From a virus: 25,140 bases of DNA. Below, in pieces: positions 2,232-18,170 of the stretch (positions are counted from its first letter, which is position 1; each line of letters starts with the position of its first letter). The stretch is from positions 1-25,140 of IMG/VR virus record IMGVR_UViG_3300006802_000514; one strand, written 5' to 3'. Under the pieces are notes generated by a model. It saw only the letters and a list, made by a program, of their open reading frames with translations. It was not told where the DNA came from and did not search any database. The position numbers and the translations under genes were made by a program.

Positions 2232-2263
2232 AAAAAAATACACCCAGTTTCCTAGGTGTATTT
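2232..2263 (-). terminator. Intrinsic (Rho-independent) terminator after the fibre gene
   Basis: On the minus strand, AAATACACCTAG (2263-2252) pairs with CTGGGTGTATTT (2247-2236): twelve base pairs including one G-U wobble, closed by a GAAA tetraloop (2251-2248). The stem runs into seven consecutive T (2238-2232) just before the ATG at 2231. The GNRA loop plus U tract is the classic intrinsic-terminator layout for minus-strand transcription out of the 654-aa gene. It lacks a U tract on the plus strand. Confidence 0.8.
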
Positions 2264-2266
2264 AGG
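2259..2266 (-). promoter_or_regulatory. Putative late promoter (CCTAAATA) overlapping the terminator left arm
   Basis: CCTAAATA on the minus strand shares the CTAAATA core with 1333-1340 and 375-382. Its last five bases form the outer end of the terminator's left arm. A second similar heptamer (TTAAATA, 2277-2271) lies just upstream. If used, transcription would begin inside the hairpin and the new RNA could not form the terminator. Confidence 0.4.
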
Positions 2267-16616: not shown

Positions 16617-18170
16617 TTAGAACTGCAAAATGACTTTGATATCTTCTTTTTGATTTATTGATCTTGTGATCGATGGACGATTATCTACGTAAATAATATT
16701 TCCAGAATATTTTTCAACTTCTGGTTGAGCAACTCCTTGCGTAAATGATTGGCCAAGGTAATATGTCCTACTATTTATTACGGTTGAGACACCTGTGAAG
16801 GATGTCTGAATTGCCAAAGTTGTAGAACCACCAAGAATGTTTATAGAACCACCAGAACCAGGAGTTGCGGTAAAACGTTGCAACCTAAATCCATATGTGG
16901 GTGAGGTATTTTGCGTTCCATCAGTATTGAATCCTGCAAGTGATCTATCTTGCCAATACTTCAATATACCCGTCGTAGCATCATAAGAAATAACTCTGCC
17001 GACTGCAGTTGAACCAACTCCGACTGTTTGTGTAACAAATGCGTCTGCGTCAAATGTAGTTGAACTGTATCCAGTACCTGTTAATTTGAGAGCATAAACC
17101 GCACTTGCTTTATCTAGAGAAAGATTTTCTGTGGAATTGTATGCATTTGGATTCCGAATGATTCCAATTCTGGAAATTTGGTTTCCAGTTATAAAATCTG
17201 GATTTTCGGTATCATTCTCAATTCTAGAATAGATTAATGTATTTCTTGCGCCAAGTTCTCTGTAAATGTCTGCACCATGTCCACCTTGAGGAGGAATAAT
17301 AACATTAAATACAGGACTTGTGGAACCAGTTGGAGCTCCACCGCCAGCAAGATCTACGGTTCCATAAGTGTATCCAGAACCACCTGATGAAATTGTAATA
17401 GATTCAACTTTTGAGTTGCTATTGATTACAACTGTTGCTTCCGCTCCAGTTCCATCACCTTTAATTGGAATTCTTGTATATGTCCTTCCTGCAGTTCCAA
17501 CTCCAACTCCCCTATTAGTAATTGTTACAATTTTGAGTTGTCCGCTAGTTGATGCATTGGTTCTAACTGATGCATTAGTAGTGCTGGTTTCCCAGTTAGC
17601 GGGAACTGGCATAAAGTTTGTAGAATCAAACTTAGTAATATCACTTGGGCTAATAGTATAAAGATATTTCCATAAATATCCATCACCACTTGTTCCTGCT
17701 TCTCTTGGTTCTAAGTCAGTGAACGTTGGTTCATCAAGTGATGCTTTTCCAGATGGATTTTCTGGATTGGTTCCATTTTGAAGACAAATATAAACTCTAT
17801 AGTCAGAATTGACTACGTAATAGTTTGCATCATATAAACTAATTGCATTTGAAGGTCTTGATGGATTTGTTGCTTTAATGTCATGCCTATACATGTCATA
17901 GGTGACACCAGATTGCCAAGTTACCTTTCTAACAACTTGTTTAATATCTGATTCATTAATTTTTTTGAGAGCAACCATTGTGTCCCAATAATTGTTCTCC
18001 TCATCAAAATTATCTCTAGGATCTGGTGGATCCGTGTCCCATGTAGAACTTACTTCAGTTGCATTAGGTAATCCAACAAAACTATAATAAGAGTTGCTAG
18101 TGGAAGCCACACTAGCAACGAATTCTTTCGCATTCAATATACGAAGTTGATCAGTTATAATTGCTGACAT
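16617..18170 (-). CDS. gp8: gp8, baseplate wedge protein with insertions (517 aa)
   Basis: gp8 is a wedge subunit that joins gp7, gp6 and gp10 in the T4 baseplate. The best evidence is the two ends. GDGYLWKYLYTISPSDITKF with MPVPANW (residues 162-193) matches T4 GDGYVWEYLFEIPPD...IVVPW. The C-terminal SGNIIYVDNRPSITRSINQK EDIKVILQF matches T4 SGEMIYMENRPPIIMAMDQTEEINILFTF. T4 gp8 has 334 residues; the extra length lies mostly in about 205-485, with a GGSGYTYGTVDL repeat, the block PPQGGHGADIYRELGA, and an SGATA-like unit (VTQTVGVGSTAVGRVIS). ATG at 18170 follows a 25-base gap with overlapping AATAAATA octamers. An octamer inside the gene at 16792-16799 could serve the next gene. Confidence 0.92.
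   Translation of the reverse strand: MSAIITDQLRILNAKEFVASVASTSNSYYSFVGLPNATEVSSTWDTDPPDPRDNFDEENNYWDTMVALKKINESDIKQVVRKVTWQSGVTYDMYRHDIKATNPSRPSNAISLYDANYYVVNSDYRVYICLQNGTNPENPSGKASLDEPTFTDLEPREAGTSGDGYLWKYLYTISPSDITKFDSTNFMPVPANWETSTTNASVRTNASTSGQLKIVTITNRGVGVGTAGRTYTRIPIKGDGTGAEATVVINSNSKVESITISSGGSGYTYGTVDLAGGGAPTGSTSPVFNVIIPPQGGHGADIYRELGARNTLIYSRIENDTENPDFITGNQISRIGIIRNPNAYNSTENLSLDKASAVYALKLTGTGYSSTTFDADAFVTQTVGVGSTAVGRVISYDATTGILKYWQDRSLAGFNTDGTQNTSPTYGFRLQRFTATPGSGGSINILGGSTTLAIQTSFTGVSTVINSRTYYLGQSFTQGVAQPEVEKYSGNIIYVDNRPSITRSINQKEDIKVILQF

Follow-up and report, generated by a model that had tools for sequence, protein, structure and literature searches.

A probable fused terminator and late promoter between late genes of a T4-like cyanophage

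The junction that follows a fibre-like gene in a cyanophage genome fragment (positions 2266 to 2232, minus strand) is probably a fused one-way terminator-promoter, in which the foot of a terminator hairpin is also a late-promoter-like box. Promoter and terminator activity, the points at which transcription starts and stops, and the role of the element as an insulator are what we infer from its sequence and from that of its relatives. Polymerase arriving from the fibre-like gene would copy both arms of the hairpin, which would form ahead of the T tract, and upstream transcription would end just before the ATG at 2231. Late polymerase carrying the phage gp55-type sigma factor would recognise CTAAATA and start at about A2253. 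The resulting RNA would keep two bases of the left arm, thereby form no hairpin, pass the T tract and express the coiled-coil/LamG cassette behind a leader of about 22 nt. Such a junction would be one-way, with upstream transcription blocked and downstream expression set by its own promoter.

The window, that is, the whole stretch of DNA analysed, is a 25,140-base IMG/VR virus record (IMGVR_UViG_3300006802_000514) that represents part of a T4-like, cyanophage-type genome; its main genes lie on the minus strand. Its gene order (tail-sheath stabiliser, small terminase, three small genes, fibre-like gene, small coiled-coil-like gene, structural genes) matches that of the Synechococcus phages S-B05 and RN05-S, both T4-like cyanophages. 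Genes for gp55 and the sliding clamp are absent from the window, itself a genome fragment. The gene upstream of the junction (4247-2283, minus strand) encodes a fibre/structural-like protein of 654 aa with an Mtd_N domain. Downstream lies a gene for a coiled-coil-like protein of 62 aa (2231-2043, minus strand; weak match to phrog_10610), the stop of which is overlapped by a gene for a 235-aa protein with a Laminin_G_3 domain (2043-1336, minus strand). The ATG at 2231 directly abuts the 3' end of the T tract. The relatives point to this ATG, rather than the GTG at 2243, as the most likely start of the 62-aa gene: the ATG is retained in them, and in many the right arm contains no start codon; the GTG, which is not conserved, was rejected. 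A tblastn search with the 62-aa protein against cultured phages gave no match, and relatives were therefore drawn from IMG/VR and by synteny. Elsewhere in the window, a perfect 10-bp inverted repeat (GTTGCTAGTG/CACTAGCAAC) was seen at 18093-18119, in the 5' part of the gene at 16617-18170.

Read 5' to 3' on the minus strand, the junction is TCCTAAATACACCTAGGAAACTGGGTGTATTTTTTTATG. It is composed of the CTAAATA box (2265-2259), the left arm of the hairpin (2263-2252), a GAAA loop (2251-2248) that is not conserved among relatives, the right arm (2247-2236) and a tract of seven T (2238-2232), the first three of which are also the base of the right arm. Both arms were assigned from the fold and from covariation in relatives. 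The fold (2263-2236, with the T run continuing to 2232) confirmed the 12-bp hairpin, GAAA tetraloop and seven T that had been described in a sequence-only reading of this DNA, and also its claim that the box gives its last five bases, AAATA (2263-2259), to the foot of the left arm. The stem has 12 pairs including one U-G wobble and a predicted free energy of -16.1 kcal/mol (z -4.1), against -6.7 +/- 2.3 for shuffled sequences, and none of 200 shuffles was as good. A stable stem-loop is thus followed at once by a T tract on the coding strand, as in intrinsic terminators. The first three T of the tract pair with the AAA of TAAATA, so that four T stay unpaired in the fully zipped hairpin. One such box-in-terminator composite was observed in the window, as against none in 100 Markov-simulated windows, and no Rfam family matched the element at 2232-2266. 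A second, weaker box, TTAAATA, lies 11 bases upstream of the element (2276-2270, minus strand) and occurs in the closest relatives only. RNA from this box, if it were active, would include the entire left arm and the full hairpin and would stop after about 30 nt.

The promoter side of the element rests on the distribution of TAAATA. In the 261 noncoding bases, TAAATA occurs ten times on the coding strand and never on the opposite strand, and none of the other 14 arrangements of its letters occurs there more than 5 times. Every gapped late gene in the window has TAAATA 14-38 nt from its start codon. The resemblance of CTAAATA to T4 late promoters, on which the earlier proposal of a promoter had drawn, held for the core, a strand-specific TAAATA (10:0) upstream of late genes as in the T4 box TATAAATA. 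The full 8-base box, CCTAAATA, is two bases off TATAAATA. The cyanophage late promoter has been given as NATAAATA (PMC2984593). The T4 late box spans positions -13 to -6 (PMC2988020), which places the predicted +1 six bases past the end of TAAATA, at A2253 in this element. The base composition at this position fits the prediction: across 187 hairpin-free late-promoter-like sites, nearly all of them in cyanophage genomes, it is purine-rich and has the lowest C content among its neighbours (A 64%, G 19%, C 4%). An A stands there in 37 of the 41 distinct relatives of the near family. The idea that +1 is A everywhere was rejected, since a broader set has G in 26 cases, A in 8 and T in 3, and it holds in the near family only. 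A Sigma70 scan of the window gave no excess over shuffles.

Conservation of the element was followed in 80 IMG/VR loci that encode relatives of the 62-aa downstream protein. In 77 of them (41 distinct composites), TAAATA lies within 45 bases of the ATG at the foot of a stem, and the remaining three (L030, L071 and L072) lack the box, the hairpin and the T tract together. A stem kept without the TAAATA core, named beforehand as the observation that would count against a fused element, was looked for in the 80 loci and found in none. TAAATA is invariant in all 41 distinct versions. The stem cores vary (CACCC/GGGTG, GAGGG/CCCTC, GACCC/GGGTC, CGCAT/ATGCG and others), with 14 cores among 27 in-register strings. 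The relatives share ancestry and the comparison is anchored on TAAATA, so these counts are not independent observations, and within them 97.6% of stem cells are paired versus 78.6% in shuffles, with 43 double-change cells versus 9.4. The covariation score is 0.49 versus 0.12 in shuffles, slid registers come nowhere near it, and pairing of the stem core falls from 97% to 49% when whole right arms are shuffled. The comparison of related phages that had been proposed as a check has thus been run, with compensating stems around a constant box as its outcome. The T tract has at least five T in 38 of the 41 distinct relatives, RNA from the predicted +1 would retain exactly two bases of the left arm in 34 of 40, and a gap of 4-7 nt separates the base of the hairpin from the ATG, both in the window and in each of the 41. 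A varying stem with a constant box and a constant geometry is what the fused model would predict. In some relatives (L020-L070 and L309-L426), left arms are often purine-rich (GAGGAG, GAGGGAG, GGGGGAG) and right arms pyrimidine-rich, so that late RNA leaders would be made of C and U only.

The same comparison bears on two simpler readings. Opposite a T tract one expects the left foot to be rich in A, and TAAATA might accordingly be no more than such a foot on an ordinary terminator, with the real promoter elsewhere. TAAATA is exact in 41 of 41 versions even though AAAAA would give better pairing. Pairing does not explain its conservation, since it stays unchanged even where its second T faces a T (9 of the 27 in-register strings). 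Together with the TAAATA placed at 14-38 nt before each gapped late gene of the window, this makes a plain terminator very unlikely. Hairpins at 3' ends can also protect mRNA, and terminators and stabilisers look alike in sequence. The junction could then combine a promoter with a hairpin that stabilises the processed fibre mRNA and terminates nothing, but the T tract conserved beside the stem is expected for intrinsic termination and is not required for protection, and we regard this reading as highly improbable.

The fused terminator-promoter also recurs before other genes. A scan with the pattern box-N14-24-C-T7-ATG was carried out with the boxes CTAAATA and ATAAATA and with permuted boxes, and a match was scored when the hairpin started within one base of the box and a gene of at least 50 codons followed. 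The fraction with hairpin plus gene among the matches listed was compared, not raw motif counts. Among the matches listed, 37 of 185 distinct hits had both, versus 3 of 191 with permuted boxes (Fisher p about 1e-9), and an association that is absent with permuted boxes speaks further against an ordinary terminator with a chance A-rich foot. The genes that follow the composites among these matches are non-homologous and include the coiled-coil gene, structural proteins with PEGxFGPxCD (phrog_773), phrog_3316 and others. The fused design was found at psbA/psbD borders, near lysis genes and before structural genes; in cultured phages, TAAATA composites stand in S-B05 (TAAATA sites 44918 and 177254) after psbA and in front of the coiled-coil position, in P-SSM4 after psbD, and in S-PM2 (TAAATA site 115171) before p152. 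The strict TAAATA composite scan found none in T4, Syn9, S-RSM4, P-SSM2 or HTVC008M. In a loose genome-wide count, TAAATA stood at the foot in 14 cases among 117 terminators versus at most 10 for other orders of its letters, the runner-up (10) being ATAAAT, which overlaps TAAATA. This count is modestly above the other orders, and the claim therefore rests on the strict geometry. In six loci (L380, L426, L551, L576, L585 and L640), such an element precedes a gene for a phrog_3316 protein (MFNFNFGKK..., about 135 aa). In L380 and L426 the gene upstream of the element is lysozyme-like or lytic transglycosylase-like, a possible lysis cassette.

Some terminators with a T tract abutting an ATG have no TAAATA and carry an extended -10 at the foot, and the junction 3' of psbD was therefore sampled. 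In this sample of 74 distinct junctions, 56 have a terminator. The Sigma70/SigA-type extended -10 TGnTAnnnT lies at the terminator foot in 30 of the 56, with the hairpin beginning right after its last base in 24 of these 30, and TAAATA lies there in 10. A promoter element of either type is thus present at 40 of the 56 feet and neither at 16. Two junctions (L803 and L804) combine the extended -10 with a -35 element (TTGACA/TTGACG) across a spacer of 17 bp. Often the extended -10 takes its TG from the TGA that stops psbD; Syn9 is an example, and its gp219 has an annotated start directly after the T tract. The promoter type hence changes at an orthologous border and the geometry stays, which is a further point against TAAATA being merely the A-rich side of a terminator. 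Elements such as TGATATAAT and TGATATACT were seen fused to the terminator foot after psbD, and extended -10 elements after psbD are located among junctions L778-L857 and at Syn9 168314, S-PM2 138879 and S-RSM4 6261 (minus strand). In genome scans, extended -10 composites were found in Syn9, S-PM2, S-RSM4, P-SSM2 (after pstS) and S-B05, with a Markov expectation near zero.

The proposal that RNA started from the box lacks the left arm agrees with the predicted folds. The predicted +1 leaves about two left-arm bases, and RNA from there is predicted to be nearly unstructured, compared with -17.8 for the read-through RNA. The logic first put forward for the junction, a putative terminator for upstream RNA and a putative promoter for downstream RNA, gains support from the same geometry at unrelated junctions with two promoter types. 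Such recurrence at unrelated genes suggests that the geometry is itself under selection. A wider and doubtful extension would make a -10 of either class fused to a terminator foot a general junction part of T4-like cyanophages that, in addition, lets a terminated polymerase slide back by about 20 bp and re-initiate there, so that transcription would pass to the next gene under a different class of promoter.

Phage genomes are dense and leave very little room for keeping transcription units apart. An element of about 35 bp at which one transcript ends and the next begins, and which by its geometry cannot stop its own RNA, would be a compact one-way insulator. It is relevant to the separation of photosynthesis genes (psbA, psbD) from structural genes during infection, and for synthetic constructs it would offer a ready-made way to stack genes. 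Its novelty is that two known parts, a terminator and a promoter, are fused in a conserved geometry. A search of the open literature, with many subscription papers outside it, found no description of such a composite.

Both parts have counterparts in known systems. Like T4-type late promoters (PMC2984593, PMC2988020), the box has a TAAATA core that is strand-specific and lies 14-38 nt upstream of late genes; unlike them, its first two bases are CC instead of TA and it is shared with a hairpin arm. Like the intrinsic terminators of T4-like phages (PMC2988022, PMC3037559), the hairpin has a stem, a short loop and a T tract directly after the stem. It differs from them in that its left foot is a promoter element and its T tract abuts the next start codon.

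The closest parallel in logic is found in T4 genes e, soc, 49 and I-TevI, whose inhibitory mRNA hairpins have a late promoter within the left arm (PMC3014915, PMC2988022). There as here, a T4-type late promoter supplies the left arm, late RNA is without the hairpin and only RNA from further upstream folds. The junction might by this precedent be a translational switch of the gene e/I-TevI type, with the read-through hairpin blocking ribosomes at the ATG at 2231 and termination minor or absent. The 4-7 nt between hairpin base and ATG in all 41 relatives make some ribosome block plausible, and since the stem ends only a few bases from the ATG, the hairpin likely affects translation of read-through RNA as a secondary effect. 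In the T4 genes, however, the helix hides the ribosome site, whereas here the ATG lies outside the helix, after the T tract, with no conserved Shine-Dalgarno sequence in the stem and none in the pairing at normal spacing; the element is therefore not classed with e, soc and I-TevI. The T tract, kept in 38 of 41 relatives as a terminator needs and absent before the ATG in the window's other late leaders, points to termination. A switch acting mainly on translation is thus unlikely, and a fused terminator-promoter is the preferred reading. A further parallel comes from E. coli, where the frd terminator overlaps the ampC promoter region, is located past the ampC start and attenuates ampC RNA as well. 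As in frd/ampC, the terminator of one operon overlaps the next promoter region; unlike ampC RNA, the downstream RNA at the cyanophage junction should escape the terminator.
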